The notes beneath the pieces are model-generated. The model was given only the letters and a program-made list of their open reading frames with translations, did not search any database and was not told the DNA's origin. Positions 38,907 to 55,340 of a stretch of DNA of 64,000 bases are shown piece after piece; position 1 is the stretch's first letter; each line of letters begins with the position of its first letter. Position numbers and translations under genes: made by a program. Origin of the DNA: Bdellovibrio sp. KM01. Lineage in GTDB: Bacteria; Bdellovibrionota; Bdellovibrionia; Bdellovibrionales; Bdellovibrionaceae. The stretch covers positions 3,658,001 through 3,722,000 of the forward strand of contig NZ_CP058348.1 of NCBI RefSeq assembly GCF_013752535.1, in the 5' to 3' direction.

Positions 38907-41900
38907 ATGTCGCAGACTCTTATTTCCATTTTGCTATTCGCGATAACTGCCAACGCCGGCGAAGTCGTAAGCTTCTTCCCGACAGGATCCGTTAAGCAGG
39001 TTCAACAGGCAACCGTACGCTTTTCCACAGACATGGTCGCAATGGGTGACCCACGTTCCAAGACCGATCCATTTAGAATGAAATGCAACATTCGCACAGC
39101 CAGCACTGAATACGATCCAGATGCGGGCGCTGAAGAAGTCAAACACTCAACCCGATGGGCAGATAATAAAAATTGGGTTTTAGAGTTCAACGAACCACTT
39201 AAATCTGGAGTGACATGCACATTCACTAAGAAGGCAAATCTCAAAGACCTTGCGGGAGCAGACGTAAACGCAGAACCATCCTACACTTTTACAACGGGCG
39301 GCCCCGCGATTTTAGAGATCGTGCCCAGACACAATGAAATTGAGCCGGATCAATACTTTGTGCTTTTAACCGATGGAGCTATCGACCCTAATTCTGTAAA
39401 GTCATTGGCCTACTTTGAAGTTTCAGGCATTCCCAACAAAGTCGGTGTTAAAATTATCGAAGGAAAAGATCGAGAAGAATCCGTCAAAGCAGCGATTAAT
39501 AACAACTGGCAGCTTCGCAGAACCTATGAGCCCATCTTGGACCACAATGGAAAAAAGTCTTTCTCCCAAATCAAAGAATTGGAAAGTTTTGTCGTCATAT
39601 CTGCAACCCAGCGGTTTCCTGAAAAATCCACCGTAGTTTTAAACTGGGTGGATGGAATTCGCTCGAAATCCGGTGTGCCCGTCACAGAAATGCAAACTTT
39701 CTCCAATACTGTCATAGAGCCCTTTAACGTAAAGTTTGTCTGTGAGAAAACCACCGCGGATCGTCCATGCAACCCTATCTTGGACATGAGATTGGAGTTT
39801 TCAAAATCCATTCCTTTAAAGTCAGTTGATGGAATCAAAGTGGTCTCTGTAGATGGGAAGTCCACGTGGACTCCTGAAGAGTTGAAACCCACAACAGATC
39901 GTAAGAAATCAGTAGAGAATCCTTCCTATTTAACCTTCAAAGGTCCTTTCCCCGAAAAAAGTCAGTTTAAGGTCATAATTCCTAAAACAATTAAAGATGA
40001 GATTGGGCGATCACTGGCAAATCAAAACAAGTTTCCCTTGTCAGTTGAAACTGATGAGTACACGCCCCTTATAAAGTTCCAGGGAGCATTCGGTTTACTT
40101 GAGTCAAAAGCAGATCCCGCAATACCAGTGAGCGTTCGCAACATCGAAAAGAATATCGAAACTCAGCAGGTAAGTTACGAAAGTAATAGCCTAGCTTTCA
40201 ACTCGGGATCCAAAATTTCTGAAATTCTTGAATGGTACAGAAAAGTTGAAAGAAAGTATGACAATTCAACAGAGCAATCAGCCAGATTAATTCCGGAGTC
40301 ATCAGGAAACAAAATCTTGATGCCAAAACCAAACGGCGAACGCGAATTCGAACTTATCGGTATTCCGTTTAAAAAGCCCGGCTTCTATGTTGTCGAACTA
40401 AAAAGTGTCCGTCTTGGAAACTCTTTGATGGGTGGCAATATGCCGATGTACGTGTCATCTTCCGCACTCGTGACTGATATGGCAGTCCATTTAAAAAAGG
40501 GCCGCGAATCTTCATTGGTATGGGTTACACAACTTTCCACAGCAAAACCAGTTGCTGATGCAGATGTAACTTTAGTGAATAATATGGGACGGGAGTTTGC
40601 AAAAGGGAAAACTGACAAGAACGGCCTGCTTCGTCTGGGCGATGTATCATTTCCTTGCGAGAAAAGAACAAGCTGGGTGCAAGGATCCGAATGGGATTCT
40701 TGCACGACCTATGTGTTCGCCAAAAAAGACGGTGATGTCTCATTCGTATCAAGTTCCTGGAACAAAGGGATTGAAGGCTACCGCTTCAATGTTCCCGGCG
40801 ATGGCATCACTGGCACCTGGGGCCCTGCCACAATCCATTCCGTTTTAGATCGCATGGCCGCGCAACGTGGCGAAAGCATCAACATGAAGCACATCATTCG
40901 TGAATATCACATGAATGGATTTAGTAAGCTGTCAGATGCTGCCCTTCCCAAAAGAGTCCTTATCGTTCACGAGGGAAGCCGCAAGACCTACACCCTGCCC
41001 CTCACTTACGATAAATCTACGGGTGCCGCTTTAAATAAATTCGCAATCCCTAGAAATGCGACACTTGGAAGATATGACATATATATCTCCAACACGGAAG
41101 CGCCCAAGGAAGCTAAAGACGATGATACGGATATGCGTGATTGGACTGCCAAATCCACGGGACATTTCATTGTCAGTGAATATCGTCTGCCACTAATGAA
41201 GGCTTCGATAAAAATTCAAGGTGAACCTTTAATCAGACCAACAGAAGTGAAGGCCGACCTGTCTGCCAGCTATCTATCTGGAGGTCCCGCTAAAGATTTA
41301 AAAGTAAAACTACGCACAAGCATTCAGCCAGGATTTTTTCAACCTCAAGTTTCCGGCGCTTCAGACTTTACTTTCTTTTCAGAGCCCGTAAAAACCGGAG
41401 TAATTGATTACGAGAAAAGAGAGACACAGGAAGATGCCTTTATCAAAGTACAAGACTTCACATTGCAATCTGATGGCGGCCTTCTCGCAAAAGTAACAGG
41501 TCTACCCCAGATCAAAAGAATTCAAGACCTTCACATGGAAATGGAGTACTCGGATCCAAACGGTGAAGTAAAAACTGCGTCGGCCCATGTGCCAATGTTC
41601 CCTTCAGAACTGGTGGTTGGACTTCGCGCGGAAAGTTGGACCGCAGACCCTGGTAAAGTGAGCGCAATGGGTGTGATTACTGGAAACACTGGTAAACCAC
41701 TTAGCAAGCGCTCTTATACTGTTGAAGCCTTTAAGTCTGATTACATTACTCACAGAAAACGTCTGGTGGGTGGTTTTTATTCTTACGATTCGAAAATCGA
41801 GAATTCTTCCCTTGGCAAAGTCTGCGATGGCAAGTCTGATGAAAATGGAAGATTCAAATGTGAACCTAAAGGTTTGCCTGCCGGAAATATCATTCTTCAA

Positions 41901-44696
41901 GCGAAAGTAACAGACGAAAAAGGACATGCAACCTACGCCACGGCGGAGATGACCGTGTTTAAATCCGGTTCAGATAACTGGTGGACTCCAAGTGATAGCG
42001 ATCGTATCGATATCATTCCCGAACGCATCTCCTATGAACCTGGCGAAAAAGCGAAACTGGTCGTCCAATCTCCGTTCCCAAAATCAACAGTACTTGTCAC
42101 TGTCGAGCGCGAAGGAATCATGGATGCGTTTGTGACGGATATAACTCGTGATAAACCAAATATCGAAGTGCCGTTAATAGGACAGTTTGCTCCGAATGTA
42201 TTCATTTCGGCCTTGGTATTAAGAGGTCGCGTTGGAGATCCAAAGCCCACTGCCCTTTTAGATCTGAGCAAGCCCGCCATGAAAATGGGTATAGTCGAAG
42301 TCAAAGTCGGCTGGCGCGATCACGAGCTTAAAGTTCAACTGAAGTCTGATAAGACGAAATACAAAGCTAGAGAAAAGGCCCAAATCGAAATCGAAGTAAA
42401 AACAGTAAATGGTCAAGCCTTGCCAGCGGGTTCGGAAGTTACCGTCGCAGCCGTTGATGAGTCCCTTCTTCGCTTGAAAGAAAATACAAGTTGGGAATTA
42501 CTAAAAGAAATGATGGGAGAGCGCGGCCTAGCTATTGAAACCAGCTCCGGACAGAACCAAGTCGTGGGTCGTCGTCATTTCGGAGCAAAAGCTAAGACAC
42601 CTGGCGGAGGCGGAGGTGCTTCACCGGGCGGCGAGAATCGTGAATTCTTTGATCCGGTTATATTCTGGCAGCCACAAGTTAAGCTCGATTCAGCCGGAAA
42701 AGCTAGAGTCACCATTCCGTTAAATGATTCGATGACAAGTTTCCGCATTGTGGCAGTCGCCACAGCCGGATTTAATCATTTTGGAAATGGCAGCACGAAC
42801 ATTCAGTCCACGAAAGACTTGATCATCTATTCAGGATTTTCACCCGTGGCCCGCGAGGGAGATAATCTTAAAAATGCCCTTACACTCAGAAATACAACTG
42901 AAAAGCCAATGCTTGTTGATCTGGATATAACCAGCAAAGAAATTCCAAAGATTGGAAAAATCGCAAGCGTAGAACTAAAATCAAGCGAAGCAAAAACAAT
43001 TGCCATACCTTTCGCGATTCCAACCGGAATTAGTTCCTATACTTTTCAGATTAAAGCGAAGGACAAGATTTCAGGAGCCGAAGATTCAATTAAATCAACC
43101 GTTAAGGTCGAAACACCTGTCCCGGTAAAAATCCTACAAGCGACTTTATTTCAATTAGATAAAACTTATCAGATTCCCGTTAAGCAGCCTTTGGATGCGA
43201 TCCCAAATAAGGGTGGACTTACGCTCGATGCTCGCAACACCCTTGTCACTAGTTTAAGCGGTGTAAAATCATACATGCACGAATATCCTTATACGTGCCT
43301 TGAACAACAAGTATCCCGCGGTATTGCCCTGGAAGACAAAGCTGCAACTCAAAGAATCATCGACGATCTTCCGTCCTACATTGACGGATACGGACTACTA
43401 AAGTTTTTCACATCTTCTATGTGCGGATCTGCCCAGCTTTCACGCTACGTTCTGAATATTCTGCATGAAAACGGATACAAGATTCCGGACGCGACCAGAT
43501 CGAAAATTGTCTCTGGCATCGAATCATATGTTTATAATCGCGGTACATGTAATGTGTGGTGGCGGGAATACATGAAGGATACATCAGGAGAAGACAAAGT
43601 TCTTCTGATGGAAACTTTGTCCCGCTATGGCGCCTTTGATAACTCGATGTTAGCAATGGTCCAAATAACTCCAAATATTTGGAAGAATGAAACTGCCGCC
43701 GCTTGGTTCCAAATACTTAAACGCCAACCGGAAATTGAAAATCGCGACGCCTTACTTAAGCAGGCAGAAAATATTCTGCGCGCACGAGTGAATTTCCAAG
43801 GCACGCTGATGAATCTTCAAGGTACTTCAGACGATGAAAGCCAATGGGTGCTTTTCACCTCAAGAGATCAAGAAGCCATGGGACTATTTGGCATCGCCAT
43901 CGACGAACCTGCTTGGAAAGATGACGTGGGCAGAGTTGCCAGAGGAGTCATCGCAAGACTTCGTCGCGGCGTCTGGGATACAACTATGGCGAACGCTTGG
44001 GGTGTCACTCAACTAAGACGTTTCAGCGCAAAATACGAAAAAGATCAAGTCTCTGGCGACACTAAAATCGCCGCAAATGAAGTTGTTGCAAACTTGAACT
44101 GGAAAAACAATCCGACAGGAGAAACCAAAGTTCTACCTTGGCCAAAGGATTCCTTGAAAACAAATGTCCCAGTCAAATTTAATCACATTGGAAATGGTAA
44201 ACCGTGGATGACTTTACAAATCCAAGCGGCGATTCCTTTGAAGCAGCCGCTGGAACTGGGTTACAAAATTGCGCGCAAAATTACTCCGGTTTTCCAGCAA
44301 ACACCTGGGAAATGGCGCGTAGGGGATGTTGCCAATGTTGAACTTACGATAACAGCCAAAGCGGATCAGCCTTGGGTTGTTGTGCGAGATCCAATTCCTT
44401 CCGGAGCCACACCGTTAGGTATGGGTCTATCAGGTTCATCAGTATTGATGGACAAAACGCCTAAAAAAGATTCGGTTGCTGAAATTCAGCAATGGCCAAC
44501 GGAGTATGACGAAAAATCTCTAACGCATTTCACTTCGTATGCTGGGTACTTGCCTCGCGGAACATATCGCGTAGACTATCGTATCCGCTTAAATTCAGCG
44601 GGTGACTTCAGGCTCCCGCCTTCTCGTGTGGAAGCTATGTATTCTCCGGAAACTTTTGTGGAGGCTCCAGTTGCAAACTGGCAAGTTGCTGAATAA
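38907..44696 (+). CDS. Bacterial alpha-2-macroglobulin (large, thioester-containing)
   Basis: A 1929-residue exported protease trap. After a short signal ending ITANA, it has many Ig-like macroglobulin domains, a Gly-rich bait-like segment (GGGGGASPGGEN, residues about 1231-1245), and the thioester site YPYTCLEQQ with Cys1464, which can covalently capture attacking proteases. It belongs to the YfhM type but is longer than the E. coli protein (about 1650 residues), and the start lacks a lipobox Cys, so it is probably not lipid-anchored. It is directly followed by, and overlaps by 26 bases, a PBP1C gene, the standard pairing, thought to guard periplasmic cell-wall repair. Confidence 0.93.
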   Translation: MSQTLISILLFAITANAGEVVSFFPTGSVKQVQQATVRFSTDMVAMGDPRSKTDPFRMKCNIRTASTEYDPDAGAEEVKHSTRWADNKNWVLEFNEPLKSGVTCTFTKKANLKDLAGADVNAEPSYTFTTGGPAILEIVPRHNEIEPDQYFVLLTDGAIDPNSVKSLAYFEVSGIPNKVGVKIIEGKDREESVKAAINNNWQLRRTYEPILDHNGKKSFSQIKELESFVVISATQRFPEKSTVVLNWVDGIRSKSGVPVTEMQTFSNTVIEPFNVKFVCEKTTADRPCNPILDMRLEFSKSIPLKSVDGIKVVSVDGKSTWTPEELKPTTDRKKSVENPSYLTFKGPFPEKSQFKVIIPKTIKDEIGRSLANQNKFPLSVETDEYTPLIKFQGAFGLLESKADPAIPVSVRNIEKNIETQQVSYESNSLAFNSGSKISEILEWYRKVERKYDNSTEQSARLIPESSGNKILMPKPNGEREFELIGIPFKKPGFYVVELKSVRLGNSLMGGNMPMYVSSSALVTDMAVHLKKGRESSLVWVTQLSTAKPVADADVTLVNNMGREFAKGKTDKNGLLRLGDVSFPCEKRTSWVQGSEWDSCTTYVFAKKDGDVSFVSSSWNKGIEGYRFNVPGDGITGTWGPATIHSVLDRMAAQRGESINMKHIIREYHMNGFSKLSDAALPKRVLIVHEGSRKTYTLPLTYDKSTGAALNKFAIPRNATLGRYDIYISNTEAPKEAKDDDTDMRDWTAKSTGHFIVSEYRLPLMKASIKIQGEPLIRPTEVKADLSASYLSGGPAKDLKVKLRTSIQPGFFQPQVSGASDFTFFSEPVKTGVIDYEKRETQEDAFIKVQDFTLQSDGGLLAKVTGLPQIKRIQDLHMEMEYSDPNGEVKTASAHVPMFPSELVVGLRAESWTADPGKVSAMGVITGNTGKPLSKRSYTVEAFKSDYITHRKRLVGGFYSYDSKIENSSLGKVCDGKSDENGRFKCEPKGLPAGNIILQAKVTDEKGHATYATAEMTVFKSGSDNWWTPSDSDRIDIIPERISYEPGEKAKLVVQSPFPKSTVLVTVEREGIMDAFVTDITRDKPNIEVPLIGQFAPNVFISALVLRGRVGDPKPTALLDLSKPAMKMGIVEVKVGWRDHELKVQLKSDKTKYKAREKAQIEIEVKTVNGQALPAGSEVTVAAVDESLLRLKENTSWELLKEMMGERGLAIETSSGQNQVVGRRHFGAKAKTPGGGGGASPGGENREFFDPVIFWQPQVKLDSAGKARVTIPLNDSMTSFRIVAVATAGFNHFGNGSTNIQSTKDLIIYSGFSPVAREGDNLKNALTLRNTTEKPMLVDLDITSKEIPKIGKIASVELKSSEAKTIAIPFAIPTGISSYTFQIKAKDKISGAEDSIKSTVKVETPVPVKILQATLFQLDKTYQIPVKQPLDAIPNKGGLTLDARNTLVTSLSGVKSYMHEYPYTCLEQQVSRGIALEDKAATQRIIDDLPSYIDGYGLLKFFTSSMCGSAQLSRYVLNILHENGYKIPDATRSKIVSGIESYVYNRGTCNVWWREYMKDTSGEDKVLLMETLSRYGAFDNSMLAMVQITPNIWKNETAAAWFQILKRQPEIENRDALLKQAENILRARVNFQGTLMNLQGTSDDESQWVLFTSRDQEAMGLFGIAIDEPAWKDDVGRVARGVIARLRRGVWDTTMANAWGVTQLRRFSAKYEKDQVSGDTKIAANEVVANLNWKNNPTGETKVLPWPKDSLKTNVPVKFNHIGNGKPWMTLQIQAAIPLKQPLELGYKIARKITPVFQQTPGKWRVGDVANVELTITAKADQPWVVVRDPIPSGATPLGMGLSGSSVLMDKTPKKDSVAEIQQWPTEYDEKSLTHFTSYAGYLPRGTYRVDYRIRLNSAGDFRLPPSRVEAMYSPETFVEAPVANWQVAE

Positions 44697-46665
44697 ACGG
44701 CACTATAAAATTTTATCTGGTGTTTCAATCGGTGTCGCCGCGATCGTGGTCGCAGCGGCCTGGATGAGTATTCCCGTGCCACTCTTTCAAACGGTGGCAT
44801 CAAATTATCAACCTTCTGATTTACTGGTAGTGGATCGCAATGGTTATCCTTTGGAATCCATTCGCAAAGGAAAAAACAAACGAAGCTTGGAGTGGGTCAA
44901 GTGGTCGGAAGTCTCCCCCTCTTTCAAAGAACTTCTTATTCAGACAGAAGATAAAAGATTCTATTCACATCTGGGTATCGACTTCTTAGCCCTGGGAAAA
45001 TCAGGGTGGGATAAAATCATCGGCGGATCAAATCGCGGGGCCAGCACCATCACCATGCAACTAGTTGGTGTTCTAACCCAGGAATCGACAGGTCACCGTC
45101 GCAACATTCCTGAAAAGATCCAGCAAATCACTCGTGCCGTTAAAATGGAAATGACGTGGTCTAAAGAACAAATTCTTGAGGCCTATGTGAACCTAGCCCC
45201 TTTGCGCGGCGAGCTCCGTGGCTTACGCTCTGCAAGCTTAGGTTATTTCAATAAAAATCCATCAGGTCTAAACAGAGAAGAAGCAGCCTTGCTGGTTGCT
45301 CTATTGCGCTCACCAAATTCTTCAGCAGACCTGGTTAGCAAACGCACTTGTAAGATCTTAGGAATAGCTGAATGCAATGACCTTCACAGCAAAACAAGCC
45401 AGCTCTTGAAATCTCCTTACAAACTCACTCGGGAACGCGATATCCTTCCCGTGCTGGCATCTTCATTTACCAAATCACGATCAAACACAACGATTCAAAC
45501 ATCCTTGGATTATGGCATTCAGGATCTCGCCATCAAAAGTCTACGCGAACAAATCCGTGCCTTAAAAAATCAGAACGTCAACGATGGCGCCGTACTGGTG
45601 ATTGAAACGAGTACTGGAAATGTCGTAGCATACGCCGCAAATGCGGGAGCTGGTATTGCTTCAGCGGCACAAATTGACGGAATCCAAATGCGCAGGCAAG
45701 CGGGATCAACAATAAAACCTTTTGTCTACGCAACTGCGTTTGACTGGAACTATCTGCACCCGAACTCCCTCTTGGACGACTCCCCTGCTGATATTCCTGT
45801 ATCTCAAGGACGCGTTTATAACCCAAGAAACTACGATAAAACATTTCGTGGTCTGGTCAGCGTCGGCGATGCTTTGGGTTCAAGTATGAATGTCCCAGCA
45901 GTTCGAGCCCTGCAACTGGTTGGAGAACCAAAAGTTTTAGATAAGTTGCGATCTGCTGGATTCGAAAAACTTCAAGAGGACGAATATTATGGTCCAAGCA
46001 TGGCCCTTGGCACAATTGATGTTACATTATGGGAGCTGACTCAAGGTTACAGAAAATTTGCAATCGACGACTCTCCCTTTTCCAAAGAATCGCGCAAAAG
46101 TATTTTTAATATCCTCGCTTCACCAGAATACCGTCGCTTTACTTTCGGAATGGACAGCCTTCTTACTTTGCCATTCGCCGCAGCGGTAAAAACTGGAACC
46201 AGCAAAGACATGAGAGATAATTGGTGCATTGGGTGGACACCTCAATATGTCGTTGGAGTTTGGATTGGAAACTTTAACGGAGAGCCGATGTGGAACGTTA
46301 GCGGGATGAGTGGTGCCGCTCCGATTTGGAGATCTATCATGTTAGCACTTCACACAAATCCAACAGCAGTTCCTATTCAATATGAACCGCCCGTTGAAGC
46401 GCTGCCGATCAAAACAATCACAAAAATTCGCTACCCCGCTAAGGATATGTTAGTGGGTTTCGATCCCGATATACCTAAGCAGAAACAGAAACTTCCAATT
46501 GAAATTGAGAATCCGCAAAAAGGACATCAAGTTTTCATTAACAATCGTCTGCTGAATACGGCTCAAGAAACCACAATGTGGCCTTTACAGCGTGGAAAAT
46601 TCCGTGTTGAACTTAAAAATGCATCTGGGGAACGTATCGATTCAGTGAAGTTTGAAGTGCGTTAG
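44671..46665 (+). CDS. pbpC: Penicillin-binding protein 1C
   Basis: A 664-residue bifunctional peptidoglycan synthase. An N-terminal membrane anchor (SGVSIGVAAIVVAAAW) precedes a GT51 transglycosylase (LLIQTEDKRFYSHLGIDF with the catalytic Glu; GASTITMQLVGV; EAYVNLAPLRGELRG) and a transpeptidase domain (AGSTIKPF with the catalytic Ser-x-x-Lys, SSMNVPAV, AAVKTGTSKD), ending in a beta-rich BiPBP_C-type tail. The start is a TTG at 44671: GTGGAGG lies about 6 bases upstream, within the alpha-2-macroglobulin gene. Longer frames from 44602 lack support. Coupled to the macroglobulin gene. Confidence 0.93.
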   Translation: MQTGKLLNKRHYKILSGVSIGVAAIVVAAAWMSIPVPLFQTVASNYQPSDLLVVDRNGYPLESIRKGKNKRSLEWVKWSEVSPSFKELLIQTEDKRFYSHLGIDFLALGKSGWDKIIGGSNRGASTITMQLVGVLTQESTGHRRNIPEKIQQITRAVKMEMTWSKEQILEAYVNLAPLRGELRGLRSASLGYFNKNPSGLNREEAALLVALLRSPNSSADLVSKRTCKILGIAECNDLHSKTSQLLKSPYKLTRERDILPVLASSFTKSRSNTTIQTSLDYGIQDLAIKSLREQIRALKNQNVNDGAVLVIETSTGNVVAYAANAGAGIASAAQIDGIQMRRQAGSTIKPFVYATAFDWNYLHPNSLLDDSPADIPVSQGRVYNPRNYDKTFRGLVSVGDALGSSMNVPAVRALQLVGEPKVLDKLRSAGFEKLQEDEYYGPSMALGTIDVTLWELTQGYRKFAIDDSPFSKESRKSIFNILASPEYRRFTFGMDSLLTLPFAAAVKTGTSKDMRDNWCIGWTPQYVVGVWIGNFNGEPMWNVSGMSGAAPIWRSIMLALHTNPTAVPIQYEPPVEALPIKTITKIRYPAKDMLVGFDPDIPKQKQKLPIEIENPQKGHQVFINNRLLNTAQETTMWPLQRGKFRVELKNASGERIDSVKFEVR

Positions 46666-46754: not shown

Positions 46755-47057
46755 ATGAGAATTCTAGTATTGATCCTGTCAGTATTTTGCTCGGCGCAAG
46801 CCTTGGCTATGACTTCATCCGAAATGAGAGCGAAGGGCTGCATCCCTTTCCGCCAAGATGACGGAACGATCACGATGAAATGCAAAGCCCCGCAATACCA
46901 AGTTAGTGAGGTAATTACTGAAATCAATGGTAAACCCGTCGACAGTCCGGCAAAAGCCATGGAACTTTATCAATCGCAAAAGGCCTCAACGATGTCTATC
47001 GAGCGTGTCCCTAAAGAAGCACGCGGCATAAATGAAGAAACGACGGACAACAATTAA
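46755..47057 (+). CDS. Small secreted protein with PDZ-like segment
   Basis: A 100-residue exported protein (signal VLILSVFCSAQALA). Residues about 52-86 (VSEVITEINGKPVDSPAKAMELYQSQKASTMSIER) resemble the second half of a PDZ domain as found in GspC of type II secretion, but the domain is incomplete. Two cysteines (GCIPF, KCKAP) could pair. GGAGG precedes the ATG. Could be a protein-interaction fragment that has become independent. Terminator follows. Confidence 0.65.
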   Translation: MRILVLILSVFCSAQALAMTSSEMRAKGCIPFRQDDGTITMKCKAPQYQVSEVITEINGKPVDSPAKAMELYQSQKASTMSIERVPKEARGINEETTDNN

Positions 47058-47069
47058 ATGAGAATTTTT

Positions 47070-47099
47070 AGGCACTCCACCGTGAGTGCCTTGTTTTTC
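47070..47099 (+). terminator. Intrinsic terminator
   Basis: AGGCACTC and GAGTGCCT with a CACCGT loop, followed by TGTTTTTCTTT. It separates the PDZ-like gene from the polysaccharide operon. Confidence 0.85.
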
Positions 47100-47169: not shown

Positions 47170-48330
47170 ATGAAAACTCTGCTTTTTGTATTCGGTACTC
47201 GTCCTGAAGCCATAAAATGTGCCCCTGTTATTTTAAAAGCCCATAAAGATCCGCGCTTTAAAGTTCTTGTCTGTTCAACAGGTCAGCATCGCGAAATGAT
47301 TCGTCCATTGTTTGATTTCTTTGGCATCAAGCCTGATTTCGACTTGGATCTTATGCGCCCCGGACAAACTTTGATTGATATCTCCATGGGAGTGATGTCG
47401 GGTTTAAACAAGATTCTCAACGAAAACAAAATCGATGCAGTGGTTGTTCAAGGTGATACGACCAGTGGCTTTATTGGAAGCCTTGTTGCTTTCTATAACA
47501 AAGTCTCTGTCGTTCACATCGAAGCTGGTCTTCGCTCGGGAGATATCTACTCCCCATTCCCTGAAGAATTTAATCGCAAAGGCACAGCCTTGGTTTCCAA
47601 GGTGCACTTAGCACCAACTGAAACCGCTAAAGAAAACCTTTTGCACGAGCACTACCCGGCTGAAGATATTTTCGTAACAGGTAACACCGGCATCGATGCT
47701 CTTTTTGAAGTGAAAAGAAAAATCGCGGCAACTCCGCAACTTCAAACAGAAGTGGCTGGAAAATATTCTTTCCTGAATCCAAAACGCAAAATGATTTTGG
47801 TAACAGTTCATCGCCGTGAATCCTTTGGTGAGCCCATGGAAGAAGTGATGAAGGGATTGCTCGAACTTTCTCGTCGCGAAGACTTGGAATTGATGATTCC
47901 ACTTCATATGAATCCTCAAGTTCGTGCCTCTGCTAAAAAGATTTTTGGCGACAATGCTCAGTGGATCGATAAGGGTGAAACTTTAAATCCAGCCAACAAA
48001 ATCTGGCTGTGTGAGCCCGTCGACTATGTGCCATTTATCTATTTGATGGATAAAGCCCACATGATCATTACTGATTCTGGCGGTGTTCAAGAGGAAGCTC
48101 CTTCCCTGGGTAAGCCTATATTAGTTGCCAGAGAAAAAACTGAGCGTCCCGAAGCAATTGCCGCTGGAACCTCTAAACTAATCCCACTTGAGCAGGCCAA
48201 ATTCTTCAAAATGGCTAGCGAAGTATTGGACACTCCTGAAATTTTTAACCGTATGTCACAGGCTAAAAATCCTTTTGGCGACGGTAAAGCATCTGAGAAA
48301 ATCTTAGATATTCTGGACACCAAACTTTAA
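47170..48330 (+). CDS. wecB: UDP-N-acetylglucosamine 2-epimerase (non-hydrolysing)
   Basis: A 386-residue GT-B-fold enzyme that interconverts UDP-GlcNAc and UDP-ManNAc. Signature segments are FGTRPEAIKCAPV, VVQGDTTSG, VVHIEAGLRSGDIYSPFPEEFNRKG, VTVHRRESFGEP, and TDSGGVQEEAPSLGKPILVAREKTERPEA. Length is usual for the family. It lies 60-125 bases upstream of the barrel-glycosyltransferase genes and on the same strand, so UDP-ManNAc is the obvious candidate donor for the polymer made there. No WecC (ManNAc dehydrogenase) is adjacent, which argues for ManNAc itself rather than ManNAcA. Confidence 0.95.
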   Translation: MKTLLFVFGTRPEAIKCAPVILKAHKDPRFKVLVCSTGQHREMIRPLFDFFGIKPDFDLDLMRPGQTLIDISMGVMSGLNKILNENKIDAVVVQGDTTSGFIGSLVAFYNKVSVVHIEAGLRSGDIYSPFPEEFNRKGTALVSKVHLAPTETAKENLLHEHYPAEDIFVTGNTGIDALFEVKRKIAATPQLQTEVAGKYSFLNPKRKMILVTVHRRESFGEPMEEVMKGLLELSRREDLELMIPLHMNPQVRASAKKIFGDNAQWIDKGETLNPANKIWLCEPVDYVPFIYLMDKAHMIITDSGGVQEEAPSLGKPILVAREKTERPEAIAAGTSKLIPLEQAKFFKMASEVLDTPEIFNRMSQAKNPFGDGKASEKILDILDTKL

Positions 48331-48455
48331 CATTAGAGAATACGTTCCAGAAACTTCCATGAAATTTCTGCACCGGCATTGTAATACAAATGCCGGTCGT
48401 ATATACCACCGAGGTAATCAAGAATTTGTCAATTCGGCGGTGGTTTATCGAACTC

Positions 48456-49163
48456 ATGGTACGTGTTCTGCGATATTCTGCTCTGAGCATAATTTTATCT
48501 ACAACATTAGTCACGACCACTGCTCAAGCATCCTTCACTTCAAGTGGAGAAATCTATTCGGAAACGAATTACGTTCCTCAGTATGGTTTACTGACGGACA
48601 CGCAACTTCGTTACGTCTTCTACAAAGACGTACTGGCCGCGGTCTATTTGGGCGCGGTCGTTCAACGTCAGGACAAGACAGCCCCTGATCAAGACACTCT
48701 TTATAACAAAGAATATCTAATGGCCGAGGTGGGCTTCCGATTCAAAATCTGGAAGAGCTTACACCTCCTTGCTGAAGCTCGCACTGAAGACCGCAGTCGT
48801 TGGGGCGTGTTCTTAGGTGATATGTGGATCTACCCGGTGAGCTCTGTGAATATGTTCACTGAGTTCTACGCGGAAGGTGTGTTGATGCCTTCCTATCATC
48901 ACGATCCAGTATCTACCGGATGGATCAAACAAGGCCTTCGCTTTCAAATTGATCCGCACCTCATGATCGATCCTTATATTGAGCTTTATGGTCGTCGCAG
49001 TCCTACTCCTGATTTGGGTCGTGACACTGATCAGGCGCGCGCGGGCGTCCGCTTCCTGGGTGCATGGAAAAAATGGAGCGTGGGTCTTTTGGTTTATGAA
49101 GCCTTCGTGAAAGACGAACGCAGCCACAACGAAGCTCTTTTGTACTTTGGAGGATCATTCTAA
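48456..49163 (+). CDS. Small outer-membrane beta-barrel protein, probable polymer exporter/NfrA-barrel counterpart
   Basis: A 235-residue exported protein (signal LSIILSTTLVTTTAQA). The mature part consists of short amphipathic strands separated by turns (YGLLTDTQLRYVFYKDVLAAVYLGAVVQ, EYLMAEVGFRFKIWKSLHLLAEART, MFTEFYAEGVLMP) and ends ALLYFGGSF, with the C-terminal Phe typical of outer-membrane barrels. It overlaps the glycosyltransferase start (TAATG). E. coli NfrA has a TPR part and a C-terminal barrel; this would be a barrel-only counterpart (inference from context). Start choice is uncertain: TTG 48426 with GAGG and ATG 48390 are alternatives. Confidence 0.7.
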   Translation: MVRVLRYSALSIILSTTLVTTTAQASFTSSGEIYSETNYVPQYGLLTDTQLRYVFYKDVLAAVYLGAVVQRQDKTAPDQDTLYNKEYLMAEVGFRFKIWKSLHLLAEARTEDRSRWGVFLGDMWIYPVSSVNMFTEFYAEGVLMPSYHHDPVSTGWIKQGLRFQIDPHLMIDPYIELYGRRSPTPDLGRDTDQARAGVRFLGAWKKWSVGLLVYEAFVKDERSHNEALLYFGGSF

Positions 49164-50542
49164 TGTTGTTTGATACTCTATTTATCCTTTTAGCATTCGC
49201 CGTCGTCATTGGTGCTTTGGTCTTCACATTGGATGACCTATTCATCGACCTTTACGCCTTGATCTTTAGAATGAAACCAAAAGTTGTCACTTCTGATTTC
49301 ATCACTAAGATCAAACAAGCTCCGGAAAAACATTTCGCTATTTTGATCGCAAACTGGAAAGAAGCGGAAGTCATCGCTCCGATGATTCGCGGAAACCTGC
49401 GCGGTCTTCAATACAACAACTACACTTTCTTCCTGGGTGTTTACCCTAATGACACTGCCACATGGGAAGCCGCTAAAAAGCTTGAGGACCTGTTCCCGCA
49501 CAAAGTCGTTGTGATCGTGAACACGCAACCCGGTCCAACTTCCAAAGGCCAGATGCTAAACGAAATGGCTCGCCAGATTATTGATTCCGAAATCGCTACA
49601 GGGCGCAAAATCGATTTGTTCCTGATGCAGGACTCTGAAGACGTGCTTCATCCACATTCACTCAGCTTGATGAATCACTATTCCTCTCAAGCAGACTTCG
49701 TGCAGATCCCGGTATTTTCTTTTGACGTTCCTGCCGCATCCCTTGTGGGTGGCGTATACATCGATGAATTTTCTGAATCACACACCAAAGATCTTTTGGT
49801 ACGCGAGCGCATGGGCGCAGCAATTCCGTCTGCGGGCGTGGGCACGTGCATCGGTAAAAATCTAATGTTGAAACTTCAGGATGCACAACAGGGTCAGTTC
49901 TTAAAAGAAGACACCCTGACTGAGGACTATCACTTGGGCATGATGACGAAGCAATTGGGTTTTAAATCCAAATTCGCTTGCGTTCAGTACGAAAAAGAAA
50001 ATGGCAAAAAGGAATTCATCGCGACTCGCGAATACTTCCCGCATTTGATGCAGGCATCGATGCGCCAAAAATCCCGTTGGACTTTGGGAATTGCCTTCCA
50101 GGGTATGGACAACCTTTCCTGGAATGGAACTTTCGTCGACAAATACTTTATGTGGAGAGACCGTCGCGGTCCTTTGAACAGCGTCTTGATCGTATTCTCT
50201 GCTTTGTTACTGGTTATGTTCGCTTCCGCACGCTCAACAGGACACCTGCCGGAAATTCTGCAAACGAATTTGTTCCAGGCTTTGTTGCTCCTGAATCTTT
50301 TGAACATGTCCGTGCGTGTGGTGCAACGAATGAAAGCCGTCTCTCGTACCAATGCGCGTATGCACATTGCGCTGGTCCCCGTCAGATGGCTTCTTGCAAA
50401 TGTTATTAATATCGGCGCGACAGTGAAAGCTTATCGCCAATACAAAGAAAGTATCAGAACAGGAAAACGCCCGGCGTGGATTAAAACCGAGCACCGTATG
50501 CCTGAGCACTTTGGAAAAGAGATTGAGGTTCAAAGCACATGA
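49163..50542 (+). CDS. Membrane glycosyltransferase 2 resembling the NfrB catalytic module
   Basis: A 459-residue inner-membrane processive GT2. Membrane segments lie near 5-25 and in the C-terminal part (about 340-400). Conserved GT2 signatures are GVYPND (93-97), GPTSKGQ, QDSEDV (156-161), IPSAGVGTC (221-229), LTEDYHLG and QKSRW (302-306). The arrangement and intervening residues (YIDEFSESHTKDLLVRE, REYFP, KYFMWRDRRG) follow E. coli NfrB closely. NfrB builds the secreted NGR glycan, which depends on WecB. The C-terminal c-di-GMP-binding MshEN domain of NfrB (about 745 residues in total) is absent. GGAGG precedes the ATG, which overlaps the barrel gene by one base. Confidence 0.9.
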   Translation: MLFDTLFILLAFAVVIGALVFTLDDLFIDLYALIFRMKPKVVTSDFITKIKQAPEKHFAILIANWKEAEVIAPMIRGNLRGLQYNNYTFFLGVYPNDTATWEAAKKLEDLFPHKVVVIVNTQPGPTSKGQMLNEMARQIIDSEIATGRKIDLFLMQDSEDVLHPHSLSLMNHYSSQADFVQIPVFSFDVPAASLVGGVYIDEFSESHTKDLLVRERMGAAIPSAGVGTCIGKNLMLKLQDAQQGQFLKEDTLTEDYHLGMMTKQLGFKSKFACVQYEKENGKKEFIATREYFPHLMQASMRQKSRWTLGIAFQGMDNLSWNGTFVDKYFMWRDRRGPLNSVLIVFSALLLVMFASARSTGHLPEILQTNLFQALLLLNLLNMSVRVVQRMKAVSRTNARMHIALVPVRWLLANVINIGATVKAYRQYKESIRTGKRPAWIKTEHRMPEHFGKEIEVQST

Positions 50543-52302
50543 GACAATTATTAGCGATTTTTAGTCTATTACTTGTCATGAGCGCAACAACTGCAGCCAA
50601 TGCGGCTTCTTGCGTGAATATCTATTATGATCGTTCACCTGATGCGACATACTGGATGGGCAAAACTTATGCGACTTTCTTGCAAAACCTTATGGGTCAC
50701 TTCCCAGAGTATCAGCAAGTCGTGTCAACGGTAGAGTCTTATAAAAAAGGCGATATCGATAAGTGCGCGGCAACGATCTATATCGGATCATATTTCGATA
50801 ATGCTGTTCCTGCGGATTTCCTAAAAGATTTCACTGAGACCAAAACCAATGTCGCTTGGCTTGGTTACAACACGTGGAAGCTTGGCAAAGACTTCGATAA
50901 CATCTTTGGTTACAGCTATGAAAAAATCAGCTCCCTAGATCGCCAAAATCTTGATTTCAAAGCCCGTCCAAGTTTCTTTAAGAACATCCTGTATAAAGGC
51001 GAAAAGTTCTTTAAGTATGGCGACTTCAGCCAAACACAAAACGGTCAGTTTCTGGCAGAGTTCGAACAGTCTTTGTTTAAACCTGTGGCTCCAGAAAAAT
51101 CTCAAGTTCTGGCAAAAGCCCAACAAAACGTAACCGGCGAAGAAGCACCGTACATTTTGCGCGCAGGAAATCACTTTTATGTGGCGGACGTTCCATTCAG
51201 CTTTATGCACGAAGCAGATCGTTACCTGGTATTTGCTGACGTTCTGTTTGATATCTTGAATGCTAAGCCTCGTCACAACGACAAGTATGCTTTCTTGCGT
51301 ATTGAAGACGTGCACGCCTTGGTCCCATTAAGCTGGTTGTACATCACGAACAAAGTTCTTAAAGAAGAACAAGTTCCGCTTAACATCTCGATCATCCCGA
51401 TCTTCTATGATCCCTTGTACCAGTACACGAACAACCCTACTGAGCAGTTGTTATCCATGGACCGCGTTCCGGCGTTTATGAACTACATCCAGGATTCCAA
51501 AGCTCAAGGTGCAAACTTCATCTGGCACGGTGTTACTCACCAATACAAAAACCAATTCAATCCTCACTCTGGAACGTCCGGGGATGACTTTGAATTCTTT
51601 GATGTCGCAAATAATGGCCCGATCGCTGAAGACAGCGTGGGTTACGTGATGGATAAACTTGAGGACGGATTCTCGGTTCTTCAGAAAGCCGGCATCACAC
51701 CTAAAATCTGGTTAACGCCGCACTATCAAGCGAGCACTTTGGACAATATCATTTTCGCCAATGTGTTTTCTTGGAACGTGGGCCGCGTGATCTATTACAA
51801 CTTTAAAGCTCAAGGCTTAACTCCATCTGCGGATCCAGCGTTATGGCTTGAAACTAAAGCTGCTAACGGCAAGCAATTGCGCGATCAATTCTTTAAGGAT
51901 TTGAAAGTGACAACGGGTTCTAAAAACTGGAGTGGTCAGTTTTTCCCATACGAAATTTTCGGAGACGTTCACGGTCAACGTGTTATCCCTGAAAACTTGG
52001 GTAACTCGCAACCATTCCAAAATGACCACGTAACAAACCCTCGTAGCAAAGAAGACATCGTAGCTGATGCGAAAAGAAATCTGGTATTGCGTGATGCTTG
52101 GGCTTCTTTCTTTTATCACCCGTTCCTGTTCACGACTTACGAAGATGGTGGACGTGGTTCCTACCCAGGCGATGCAAGTGAACTTCGTTTCATTTTGCAG
52201 GAGCTAAAAAAGATGGGCTACAAGTTCATCGATATTAATGATTTTACGAATAAGAATACAAAATTTAAAAGACCTGAACCAATTTATAAGGATGTCCAGT
52301 AA
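50539..52302 (+). CDS. Secreted polysaccharide deacetylase-like protein (DUF2334)
   Basis: A 587-residue exported protein (signal LLVMSATTAANA). The N-terminal 240 residues are a distinct domain of unknown type; from about 250 the DUF2334 pattern begins: AFLRIEDVHALVPLSWL (Asp257), ISIIPIFYDP, IWHGVTHQY (His330, His334), and later FFYHPFLF (His527). DUF2334 is related to NodB-type de-N-acetylases, with Asp and His ligands for the metal. Deacetylation of the exported glycan in the periplasm is the natural inference. Its ATG overlaps the stop of the glycosyltransferase gene (ATGA). Confidence 0.85.
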   Translation: MRQLLAIFSLLLVMSATTAANAASCVNIYYDRSPDATYWMGKTYATFLQNLMGHFPEYQQVVSTVESYKKGDIDKCAATIYIGSYFDNAVPADFLKDFTETKTNVAWLGYNTWKLGKDFDNIFGYSYEKISSLDRQNLDFKARPSFFKNILYKGEKFFKYGDFSQTQNGQFLAEFEQSLFKPVAPEKSQVLAKAQQNVTGEEAPYILRAGNHFYVADVPFSFMHEADRYLVFADVLFDILNAKPRHNDKYAFLRIEDVHALVPLSWLYITNKVLKEEQVPLNISIIPIFYDPLYQYTNNPTEQLLSMDRVPAFMNYIQDSKAQGANFIWHGVTHQYKNQFNPHSGTSGDDFEFFDVANNGPIAEDSVGYVMDKLEDGFSVLQKAGITPKIWLTPHYQASTLDNIIFANVFSWNVGRVIYYNFKAQGLTPSADPALWLETKAANGKQLRDQFFKDLKVTTGSKNWSGQFFPYEIFGDVHGQRVIPENLGNSQPFQNDHVTNPRSKEDIVADAKRNLVLRDAWASFFYHPFLFTTYEDGGRGSYPGDASELRFILQELKKMGYKFIDINDFTNKNTKFKRPEPIYKDVQ

Positions 52303-54020
52303 TGAAAAACCTTAAGCACCTTCTATTGCTTTGTGTAGTAGCACCAAGCCTAGCGTTAGCTGCTCTTAACTTGCCAGCTCCGCAAGACCTTTTAACAAAA
52401 GCTGCTACAAGCCGTACGGCTTTGCGCGAAGTTATCATGGATCTTGATCTCAATATCTCTGAGATGAGAGACGCAGTAACTTTCGATAAGTACTTTGCAT
52501 TGCTAGGCCAACTTCAAACGCAAGCTACTAAATCAAACTTGGATCAATACTATCCAAACGCCGTTGAGCAACTTGGTTTGCACATGGTTACAAATGGTAT
52601 GCGCTGGTTGGATCTTTCTAAAGATTCTTCTGAAAAAGTTCAATACTATGTAACTTGGATGGATGCAGATGCATTGGGCCGTCTTCTTTCAGTGGTTGAG
52701 TACCAGCTTGACGTTGTTAAAGATCCAGCTGCTCTTCAAAAAATCACTGCAAACATCGATGCGATCCTGCCTCTTGTTGACAAGAAATCCAGCTCACTTC
52801 CGTACGTTCCAGCTGGTTTCCGCCGTCTTCAATCTGACATTGCGGTGACAATGCTTAAGCAAAACCAAATGTCTCCAGAACAAAATCAGTTCTGGATCTC
52901 TCAGATCAAAATCTCTTCTTCTTTGTCTGAGTACATCGACGTTTTGAACCAAGGTATCTATGCTTTGGGCACAAAAAACAAAGCTGATGGTCACTTCTAT
53001 TTGTCTCAATTGCTTCTTTTGAACAAACAAACGACTAAATTGACTGACAGCTCTCCAGCTTGGTTGCTTGCAGGTCTTGGTGATTCTACGATCGAAACTT
53101 TGCTTCGCATGGTTCGTTTCGAAGAAAACATCTCTGCTGAGGAATTCACGGCAGCCGTAAATTCGTTGTCTTTGCGCCACGTACAAAGCTTGGTTCAACA
53201 ATGGATGGCTCAGGACACGATCCCTTCTGGCACTTACTCTGCGAAATACATCGAACTTTCCAGAATGCTGGTTGATATGTCTCGCGCTAAAGGTGCGGCT
53301 AAAGACTCTGATGATCTTGCTAAATGGTTGGGTCAAAAATCAGCTCCAGTTTTGGCTAAAGAACAAAACTTGGAAGGTGAATACGCTCTGACTGATAAAA
53401 AAGGTCGTTCTTGGAAATTCACAGTAGCAGTTGCTCGTGAGAACATGCTGATCGCGGCTCTTTCTATGCAAGGTGGCGTGGTTTACAAGGCGTTCTTTAA
53501 CGTAGCTTACAATGTTAAAGGTTCTGGATTCGTAGCTTCTCAACGTGATCAAGACGTTGACCAAGATCAAAATCCACCCATCAAATTCGATTACAAAAAC
53601 GGCGTAATGACTGTTCAAGATCCATTCGGCCGCGATGGTATGACGACTTTGACTGGCAAAAAGGTTCAAAACTTCACAAACATGTGGGGCACGGCAGTTG
53701 CTAACCCGGAGTATGCTGAAGGTATCTACGAAGGCACTATCTACACTCCACAAGGTAAACCATTCTTTGGACGTGTGATCGTAACTGCTTTCAACGGTTA
53801 CACTTTGGGTCGTATTGATTCCAAAAACCTGACTGTGGATTTAAACATCGGCAGCAAAGGTACTGATGGCGTGATTATCATGACTTCTGGTCGCAACATT
53901 GGTTCTTCATGGGTGCAAATCCGTGCAAACGTAACAGCCTACGGTCTTGACGCTTACATCGTTGTAGGTGGCCAAGGACAAGCTAAGACAATGTCCAAAC
54001 TTAAACGCGTAAGCAAATAG
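52302..54020 (+). CDS. Exported two-part protein of unknown function in the polysaccharide operon
   Basis: I do not recognise this 572-residue protein. Signal (LLLLCVVAPSLALA) is followed by a mainly helical part (about 20-350) rich in regularly spaced Leu and Asp/Gln residues, suggestive of a helical-repeat scaffold, and a beta-rich part (about 350-572) with Gly/Thr/Val strands (FNVAYNVKGSGF, EGIYEGTIYTPQGKPFFG). No TPR motif or catalytic residues can be named. It is locked between the deacetylase-like and hydrolase-like genes (TAATG overlap upstream, 8 bases downstream), so it is expected to serve polymer handling. Codon bias suggests strong expression. Confidence 0.8.
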   Translation: MKNLKHLLLLCVVAPSLALAALNLPAPQDLLTKAATSRTALREVIMDLDLNISEMRDAVTFDKYFALLGQLQTQATKSNLDQYYPNAVEQLGLHMVTNGMRWLDLSKDSSEKVQYYVTWMDADALGRLLSVVEYQLDVVKDPAALQKITANIDAILPLVDKKSSSLPYVPAGFRRLQSDIAVTMLKQNQMSPEQNQFWISQIKISSSLSEYIDVLNQGIYALGTKNKADGHFYLSQLLLLNKQTTKLTDSSPAWLLAGLGDSTIETLLRMVRFEENISAEEFTAAVNSLSLRHVQSLVQQWMAQDTIPSGTYSAKYIELSRMLVDMSRAKGAAKDSDDLAKWLGQKSAPVLAKEQNLEGEYALTDKKGRSWKFTVAVARENMLIAALSMQGGVVYKAFFNVAYNVKGSGFVASQRDQDVDQDQNPPIKFDYKNGVMTVQDPFGRDGMTTLTGKKVQNFTNMWGTAVANPEYAEGIYEGTIYTPQGKPFFGRVIVTAFNGYTLGRIDSKNLTVDLNIGSKGTDGVIIMTSGRNIGSSWVQIRANVTAYGLDAYIVVGGQGQAKTMSKLKRVSK

Positions 54021-54028
54021 GACTGATT

Positions 54029-55300
54029 ATGAAACTTATTAATCTGATTTCAGCTTTCGTATTGATGTTCGCAGCGAATTCCTTCGCTGCTGACAAATAC
54101 GTTGCAGGCTTTAACTTAACTGAATCTGAAGGCTTCCTTTACGATGCGGCACCTGCGGGCCAGCCAAAAACATTGGCGCAGCAAGCAGTTGATGAAGCAA
54201 AACGCCTTGGTTCGAATCACGTTATCTTGAATCTTCGCGCGATCATGAAGGGTCCATATTCTTCTGAAATCATCCCAGTTACTGCTCCGGCGGAACGTTC
54301 TAAAGAAGCTATGCGCATGGCGAAGCTTATTAAGTACATCCAAAGCCAAGGCATGACGGTGGGTATCCGCCCGATTTTCTTCGTGGTTGGTCCAAACGGC
54401 GAATTCCCTTACATGGAAAAACAATCCAATGGCACTATGAAAACTTGGTGGCATGGTAACATCCAGCCTAAAGATCCAAATCGTTGGTTTGAATCTTTCC
54501 GTGTTTATCTTGATGTTTACATCACGGTAGCGAAGCTTGCGAAAGTGGACGAGTTCACGATCGGTGCAGAGCTTTACTCGATGACTGTGGGTATTGAAGA
54601 TCAATGGAAAGAATATCCATATGGTTTCCCAGGCCGCTGGTTGGAACTTCTGCGTTATGTTCGTGCCAAATTGCCAAACGCTCGTTTGATGTATGACGTC
54701 AACTTTACGGATGACAGCGTGAACAATGGTCCTTTGACTGCATCTGGTGGTGAGTTCGAAAGATGGCGCTACCGTTTGGTGGACCTTGCGGACCGTCCAA
54801 ATCCAGAAGAACAAAAAATCTGGCAAGACCTTTCCACTTTCTGGAAAGAACTAGATGCTATCGGTTTGGATATCTATCGTTCGTTGGCTTCCAATGACCA
54901 AGTGTTACCAAACACCTATGCAGACCTGGTAAGTTCTTTGAAACTTCGCTCTGATTCTTATGCAACTCAGTTGGATACAGGACTTACTCAGATCGAATTG
55001 ACTTTGGACCACCACAAGAAAGCAATCATCAAAGAAATCGGTTTCCGCTCTGTGGAAAAAGGCTTCATTGATCCATTTGCTTACGCTGGTTCAGGCACAG
55101 TAAACATTCAAGACCAAGCTGCGGCTTACCAAGCGATCTTTGAGTCTTTCTGGCAGCCACAATGGCCATGGTTCCAAGGTATCAACTTCTGGGATATCGC
55201 AATCGACTCTTCTAAAAAGGGTCGCAATGACAACGGCTTCTCTCCAATCGGTAAAGAAGCGACTGAAAAAGTTGTTAAAGAGAACTTCAAAAATAAATAG
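54029..55300 (+). CDS. Secreted GH113-like TIM-barrel glycoside hydrolase
   Basis: A 423-residue exported protein (signal SAFVLMFAANSFA). It follows the GH113/mannanase-type TIM-barrel pattern: AVDEAKRLGSNHVILNLRA, then FTIGAELYSM with acid/base candidate Glu181 and AIIKEIGFRS with nucleophile candidate Glu336, and a C-terminal WPWFQGINFWDI strand. In PgaB-type systems a deacetylase is joined to a glycan hydrolase; here these are separate genes of the same operon. The natural substrate is presumably the operon's own polymer. A strong terminator follows. Confidence 0.8.
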   Translation: MKLINLISAFVLMFAANSFAADKYVAGFNLTESEGFLYDAAPAGQPKTLAQQAVDEAKRLGSNHVILNLRAIMKGPYSSEIIPVTAPAERSKEAMRMAKLIKYIQSQGMTVGIRPIFFVVGPNGEFPYMEKQSNGTMKTWWHGNIQPKDPNRWFESFRVYLDVYITVAKLAKVDEFTIGAELYSMTVGIEDQWKEYPYGFPGRWLELLRYVRAKLPNARLMYDVNFTDDSVNNGPLTASGGEFERWRYRLVDLADRPNPEEQKIWQDLSTFWKELDAIGLDIYRSLASNDQVLPNTYADLVSSLKLRSDSYATQLDTGLTQIELTLDHHKKAIIKEIGFRSVEKGFIDPFAYAGSGTVNIQDQAAAYQAIFESFWQPQWPWFQGINFWDIAIDSSKKGRNDNGFSPIGKEATEKVVKENFKNK

Positions 55301-55306
55301 TTCCTT

Positions 55307-55340
55307 AAAAATCCCCGCCCTCGAGCGGGGATTTTTCTTT
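55307..55340 (+). terminator. Strong intrinsic terminator of the polysaccharide operon
   Basis: AAAAATCCCCGC pairs with GCGGGGATTTTT around a CCTCGA loop, followed by CTTT. Marks the end of the transcript that includes the hydrolase gene. Confidence 0.95.

Follow-up and report, generated by a model that had tools for sequence, protein, structure and literature searches.

We know of no structure for NGR, the receptor of phage N4. The NGR system of E. coli comprises NfrB, NfrA and YbcH together with WecB (PMC8669469, PMC8669472); the linkage between WecB and NfrB has been described earlier, and the residues of the DxD, TED and QxxRW motifs are needed in E. coli NfrB, where their mutation stops N4 infection (PMC8669469). 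Here we analyze six genes at positions 47170-55300 of the forward strand of a 64,000-nucleotide stretch of DNA from Bdellovibrio sp. KM01 (contig NZ_CP058348.1, positions 3,658,001 to 3,722,000), in the following termed the window, whose host genome is of the Bdellovibrio type and 3.96 Mb in size. In our reading the six genes probably constitute a synthase-dependent exopolysaccharide system, a derived relative of the NGR system (NfrB/NfrA/WecB) that would make a partly de-N-acetylated polymer of N-acetylmannosamine (ManNAc). Common to both are a synthase of glycosyltransferase family 2 (GT2) from the NfrB family with identical catalytic residues, the link to WecB, an outer-membrane barrel and a further exported protein. 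In contrast to NGR, the operon lacks the MshEN domain for cyclic di-GMP (c-di-GMP), the fusion of TPR part and barrel in NfrA, and DUF4434, and it adds a DUF2334 protein, a protein with helical and beta domains and a GH113-like hydrolase. DUF4434, the YbcH family, has no match among the six genes, nor does the GH113 profile match YbcH. As three features that define NGR, namely MshEN, the NfrA fusion and DUF4434, were each looked for and not found, we do not count the operon as a member of the NfrBA-YbcH system, although its mode of action is probably similar. The features of the locus are as follows:

47070-47091 (+): intrinsic terminator of a small upstream gene, 5' limit of the operon (RNA fold -13 kcal/mol, z -4.8)
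47170-48330 (+): wecB, non-hydrolysing UDP-GlcNAc 2-epimerase (TIGR00236, 423 bits against a cut-off of 210)
48390-49163 (+): small outer-membrane beta-barrel protein, putative export pore (C-terminal Phe, weak profile match to the NfrA C-terminus)
49163-50542 (+): GT2 polysaccharide synthase of the NfrB family, without MshEN (NCBIfam models, tree, residues)
50539-52302 (+): two-domain DUF2334 polysaccharide deacetylase-like protein, probably exported (PF10096, structure model, conserved residues)
52302-54020 (+): protein of unknown family (UNK), probably exported, proposed periplasmic scaffold (structure model)
54029-55300 (+): GH113-like glycoside hydrolase, probably exported (PF22612; E181, E336)
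about 55307-55336 (+): intrinsic terminator, 3' limit of the operon (12-bp stem, RNA fold -18.4 kcal/mol, z -5.2)

An earlier note on this DNA had described six such genes, joined by overlaps or short gaps and closed by a terminator, and this description agrees with the coordinates of all six open reading frames, with the profile matches, with the RNA folding and with the five junction distances, which are 59, -1, -4, -1 and +8 bases in order. The first gap would widen to about 125 bases if the barrel protein begins at an internal Met near 48456, which is probably its true start. The 3' terminator was read directly from the sequence, a pattern scan not having listed it, and no shuffled sequence folds as well. 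Hydrophobic N-termini suggest that the DUF2334, UNK and GH113 proteins are probably exported. The block between the two terminators, proposed in the note to be one operon-like unit, recurs in the same order in other genera, as far as distant Bdellovibrionota, and its flanking genes are not shared. In the gene-order table, in which some loci are doubled because the same genome was drawn from two collections, the order GT2-DUF2334-UNK-GH113 is contiguous in genomes of several Bdellovibrionota families; the position of wecB varies, lying before the block, divergent to it or behind it. For four of the six genes dN/dS against a relative of 90% identity is 0.02-0.06. As the gene order recurs without shared flanks and these ratios are low, the arrangement is not due to chance, and the six genes are a real, conserved and functionally coherent unit.

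The best NCBIfam models for the GT2 protein (459 amino acids) are all of the NfrB type, with E values from 1e-78 to 1e-111, and no cellulose or PNAG (poly-N-acetylglucosamine) model (PgaC_IcaA) was matched in this search. Note that its score is 313.6 bits against an equivalog cut-off of 1170 bits for NfrB; judged by its sequence, the protein is a member of the NfrB family and not an NfrB equivalog. Over the glycosyltransferase part its identity to E. coli NfrB is 32%, and D157, D255 and W306 correspond to D169, D267 and W330 of the E. coli enzyme (DxD, TED, QxxRW). A maximum-likelihood tree of NfrB-type, PgaC and BcsA sequences puts GT2 in a clade of 17 members (100/100) next to that of classical NfrB, and PgaC and BcsA lie across a very long branch. 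As the branch joining the GT2 and NfrB clades reaches only 78/78, their exact order is unsure. The synthase had been called NfrB-like beforehand, which models, residues and tree bear out, and a grouping with unrelated synthases had been named as the observation that would speak against it; run against PgaC and BcsA, the tree places GT2 with neither. Strong membrane segments are found at residues 5-23 and 338-356, and a PDB sequence search returned no relative. Neither an MshEN domain nor a c-di-GMP motif is present in GT2, the MshEN proteins of this genome being encoded elsewhere, and as the c-di-GMP domain is absent the control of GT2 must differ from that of E. coli NfrB. A candidate MshEN in the small upstream protein at 46755-47057 was rejected, its match (E 0.066) being below the cut-off and not conserved with the block.

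The substrate of this synthase is suggested by wecB, whose product has 3dzc as its nearest solved structure (E 7e-117). Among 66 genomes of the family, WecB is present in 20/20 with the synthase and in 2/46 without it (Fisher 6e-15, without correction for phylogeny); the corresponding counts in the genus are 12/12 and 1/12. A supply of ManNAc by WecB, as claimed in the earlier note, is in line with these counts and with the position of wecB next to the synthase genes. The only other Epimerase_2 gene of the genome, at 1784 kb, was considered as a second WecB feeding the pathway and rejected: it does not reach 1e-40 against WecB and, by reading of its neighbors, belongs to a different, FnlABC-like sugar cluster. 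No UDP-sugar dehydrogenase of the WecC family (PF03721) was found in the genome, in a search that was positive in 13/14 control genomes and did not extend to WecG/TagA and other users of ManNAc, so that the WecC outlet from UDP-ManNAc to ManNAcA (N-acetylmannosaminuronic acid) is missing. Together, the co-occurrence of WecB and the lack of a WecC-family dehydrogenase make ManNAc the likely building block of the polymer.

These same data bear on the possibility that the polymer consists of another N-acetylated sugar, or of a mixture, that WecB serves it only in part, and that the DUF2334 and GH113 proteins act on such a chain. To our knowledge the donor of an NfrB-family enzyme has never been measured directly. 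The structural relatives PelA and Agd3, introduced below, act on polymers of N-acetylgalactosamine (GalNAc; PMC12022489, PMC7229062), and the ydaJKLMN polymer of B. subtilis binds a Gal/GalNAc lectin (PMC13274460). Given that WecB accompanies the synthase in every case, that a WecC-family dehydrogenase is lacking and that the hydrolase families involved, GH113 and GH26, are mannan enzymes, we regard such a polymer as distinctly unlikely.

The deacetylase-like gene reported in the note is present, as evidenced by a PF10096 (DUF2334) match of 133 bits against a curated cut-off of 26 (E 1e-38). Its product contains in addition a separate 245-residue N-terminal domain that had escaped this description: residues 23-245 form a ThuA/GATase1-like domain and residues 249-578 the DUF2334 domain. 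A PDB sequence search again gave no relative. For the structure model, with a predicted local distance difference test score (pLDDT) of 86, the best Foldseek match along the chain was PelA (9cgy, E 1.1e-9), and VIA-align gave Z 13.3 against Agd3 (6nwz; 409 residues aligned, root mean square deviation (rmsd) 7.5) and likewise Z 13.3 for the N-terminal domain against a ThuA-like protein. Like PelA of the Pel system and Agd3 (CE18/CBM87) of the galactosaminogalactan system, the modelled protein has a predicted ThuA/GATase1-like domain followed by a predicted deacetylase domain, with a putative D-H-H metal motif and catalytic His; the corresponding residues D257, H330, H334 and H527 are kept in 15/15 DUF2334 homologues across phyla. 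It differs from both in its sequence, with an identity of only about 10%, in a Glu at the base position, in the separate hydrolase and in the type of synthase. In Agd3 the N-terminal domain has a ThuA-like fold and binds the polymer (PMC7229062), and glycan binding is a possible role for its counterpart here. The two-domain protein is also found in Burkholderia, Comamonadaceae and Streptomyces. The present locus indicates a possible function for DUF2334, a family with scarcely any literature in an open-access search, which returned one paper.

A hydrolase-like gene had been noted as well, and PF22612 is matched with 67.9 bits against a cut-off of 27 (E 1e-18), E181 and E336 aligning with the catalytic Glu residues of solved GH113 mannanases. 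GH113 genes, unlinked copies included, occur in 14/20 genomes of the family with the synthase and in 0/46 without it. In G075, from a related genus, GH113 is replaced by a GH26 protein that lies between GT2 and DUF2334 (L083:11616-12710), and both GH26 and GH113 are beta-mannanase families (PMC9032380), so that a manno-configured chain, which we infer from the hydrolases, fits. GH113 enzymes being mannanases, and Bdellovibrio being known to secrete many hydrolases, the locus might instead serve degradation, with the GH113 and DUF2334 proteins digesting prey polysaccharide and GT2 and WecB as unrelated neighbors. We consider this highly improbable, since GH113 is confined to genomes with the synthase even where it lies at another locus, and the deacetylase gene begins 4 bases before the end of the synthase gene and accompanies it elsewhere.

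Two further GH113-like genes are found at other loci of the same genome (L107:4934-6202, 39%; L108:5286-6548, 37% identical). Exported proteins of about 292 amino acids from Legionella wadsworthii (L074:11762-12640) and Bdellovibrio qaytius (L035:7489-8370) are 47% identical to each other, have no Pfam match and adjoin the synthase cluster in both organisms; they may represent a further family of hydrolases acting on this polymer.

The barrel protein ends in Phe. UNK has no family match in the profile libraries and no relative in a PDB sequence search. Its model (pLDDT 87) shows an alpha-helical solenoid at residues 27-354 and beta domains at 359-457 and 474-571. A fold search with UNK gave generic helical-repeat matches only (best Z 9.9, too low to be meaningful for helical repeats), and the weak two-barrel likeness to 1ei5 (Z 8.6, rmsd 8.1) was set aside, so that we claim no fold family. 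A UNK profile finds the protein in 21/369 genomes of the phylum, in 11 genera, and in nearly all loci read its gene adjoins that of DUF2334 or of a stand-alone N-domain. As a guess from the shape of the model and this position, UNK may be a periplasmic scaffold.

In the pathway envisaged, WecB would convert UDP-GlcNAc to UDP-ManNAc, and the membrane-bound GT2 would polymerise ManNAc and thread the chain into the periplasm, where the DUF2334 protein would grip it by its N-terminal domain and, in a reaction that depends on a metal, strip some of the N-acetyl groups. The helical UNK would stand in for the TPR part of NfrA as a periplasmic scaffold, export would run through the small barrel and the GH113-like hydrolase would trim the polymer. 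Gene content, unit structure, homology, conserved catalytic residues and co-occurrence are direct results; the sugar, its linkage, the deacetylation, the export route and the scaffold role are deduced from them. From the genetic tie of an NGR-related synthase to a deacetylase and mannanase-family hydrolases we expect a manno-configured polymer that is partly cationic, and the soluble enzymes of the operon could serve to test NGR itself.

Several points weigh against this assignment. The match of the barrel profile to the NfrA-type C-terminal region is weak (E 1.7e-5, probability 78%; E 1.7e-4 against residues 399-577 of a Legionella NfrA-like protein), and profile comparison of UNK with NfrA detected no similarity. 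The position of the catalytic base in the deacetylase is occupied by Glu (E256) instead of the usual Asp. The GH113 match is remote and made up of two partial HMM (hidden Markov model) stretches, and one large GH113 clade keeps the key residues, yet shows no detectable activity (PMC9032380). Finally, the co-occurrence counts are not corrected for phylogeny, and the presence of ManNAc in NGR itself is a postulate (PMC8669472).

The overall logic of GT2 synthase, deacetylase, hydrolase and outer-membrane pore is shared with PgaABCD, the PNAG system. However, the synthase is not PgaC-like, no PgaD is found among the six genes, and deacetylase and hydrolase, two distinct proteins, belong to other families and have no sequence similarity to PgaB; membership in the Pga system is rejected. 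PgaB-like processing was likewise discarded, since neither the DUF2334 nor the GH113 profile matches E. coli PgaB and the two are encoded by separate genes. The processing had been called Pga-like in the note, a label that is not supported, the model of the deacetylase resembling PelA and Agd3 and the hydrolase being of a mannanase family. A GT2-based exopolysaccharide operon with an associated glycosidase is also found in B. subtilis (ydaJKLMN) and Listeria (pssA-E), of which YdaL of B. subtilis is a DUF2334 protein and the Listeria polymer is based on ManNAc. Unlike the present operon, both use GH8-type hydrolases. They further differ in their BcsB-like and GGDEF-like receptor proteins (PMC4125290, PMC5422440), and Listeria PssC resembles IcaA/HmsR (PMC4125290), not NfrB. 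The Listeria polymer is beta-1,4-ManNAc with galactose side groups, according to work cited in PMC5422440.

NGR clusters elsewhere follow the pattern wecB-(BcsB)-nfrB-nfrA-DUF4434, with not every gene in each record. In three of them (L099, L113, L114) wecB and the gene of the NfrB-type synthase are separated by a BcsB-like gene, which recalls the BcsB-like subunit of Listeria Pss. A Comamonadaceae plasmid with the order wecB-NfrB-type glycosyltransferase-DUF2334-NfrA-DUF4434 is a direct bridge to the NGR clusters. The bridging cluster of Legionella has an MshEN-bearing synthase, and an L. wadsworthii enzyme of the wider family has a c-di-GMP motif. On a Streptomyces plasmid (L098:4335-10614) wecB, GT2, DUF2334 and a clear GH113 occur together; as this GT2 scores with PgaC/EpsU-type models and not with NfrB, the enzyme set of wecB, DUF2334 and GH113 can pair with another synthase.

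Such bridges raise the question whether the locus makes plain NGR, the same glycan as E. coli NfrBA-YbcH, with the barrel and UNK replacing NfrA, GH113 replacing YbcH and nothing chemically new. The synthase family and the WecB link are the same, and the Comamonadaceae cluster joins DUF2334 with NfrA and DUF4434. Pfam places DUF4434, the family of E. coli YbcH, among TIM-barrel hydrolases, so that a hydrolase slot may already exist in NGR. Against this, DUF2334 is absent from E. coli and most NGR clusters examined, for which reason the final polymer should differ from NGR in its N-acetylation, and the synthase, which lacks MshEN, stands in a clade of its own. Plain NGR is thus unlikely in our view, and we retain the derived, partly de-N-acetylated polymer. 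The note knew of no described system with this combination, and none was found in the open-access literature searched; yet the combination is not isolated, as DUF2334 stands beside NfrB-type synthases in other phyla and DUF4434 makes up a third gene in NGR clusters. With synthase family and WecB link already published, the new element is the DUF2334/GH113 variant of NGR-type synthesis. With slightly more doubt than confidence, we put forward that it represents a class of secreted polymannosamine, de-N-acetylated in part and not described so far, with an NfrB-family branch that is not directly gated by c-di-GMP and a mannanase-family hydrolase adapted to backbones of ManNAc and mannosamine, distributed over Bdellovibrionota and, in altered form, over Legionella, Burkholderiales and Streptomyces.

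A second, shorter locus in the same genome at about 1743.4-1746.3 kb (L022:8428-11332) comprises a barrel, a GT2 (62% identical) and a stand-alone N-domain without the deacetylase, and adjoins phosphate-type ABC transporter genes. In genome G003, which we take to be the predator B. bacteriovorus HD100, only the N-domain gene is left at this site, and synthase, WecB and GH113 are all absent from the genome. The glycan is therefore not a general requirement for predation and the pathway is optional in predators, which weakens the link to predation drawn in the note. Remnants at the site of the second locus also occur in other Bdellovibrio, with an N-domain only (L092:9512-10252) or a GT2 fragment, N-domain and UNK (L041).

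Upstream of the operon, the window holds at 38907-46665 a bacterial alpha-2-macroglobulin gene that overlaps a gene of the penicillin-binding protein 1C type. In the near-identical genome G016 (L023) neither of these genes has a match within 6.6 kb upstream of wecB, although genes farther upstream do match the window. In the close relative G013 (contig 1) a rearrangement has split the cluster inside UNK, with one half at 3236 kb and the other at 1875 kb (L024 being one half); UNK residues 1-464 are encoded at one site, and residues 488-572 together with GH113 at the other.

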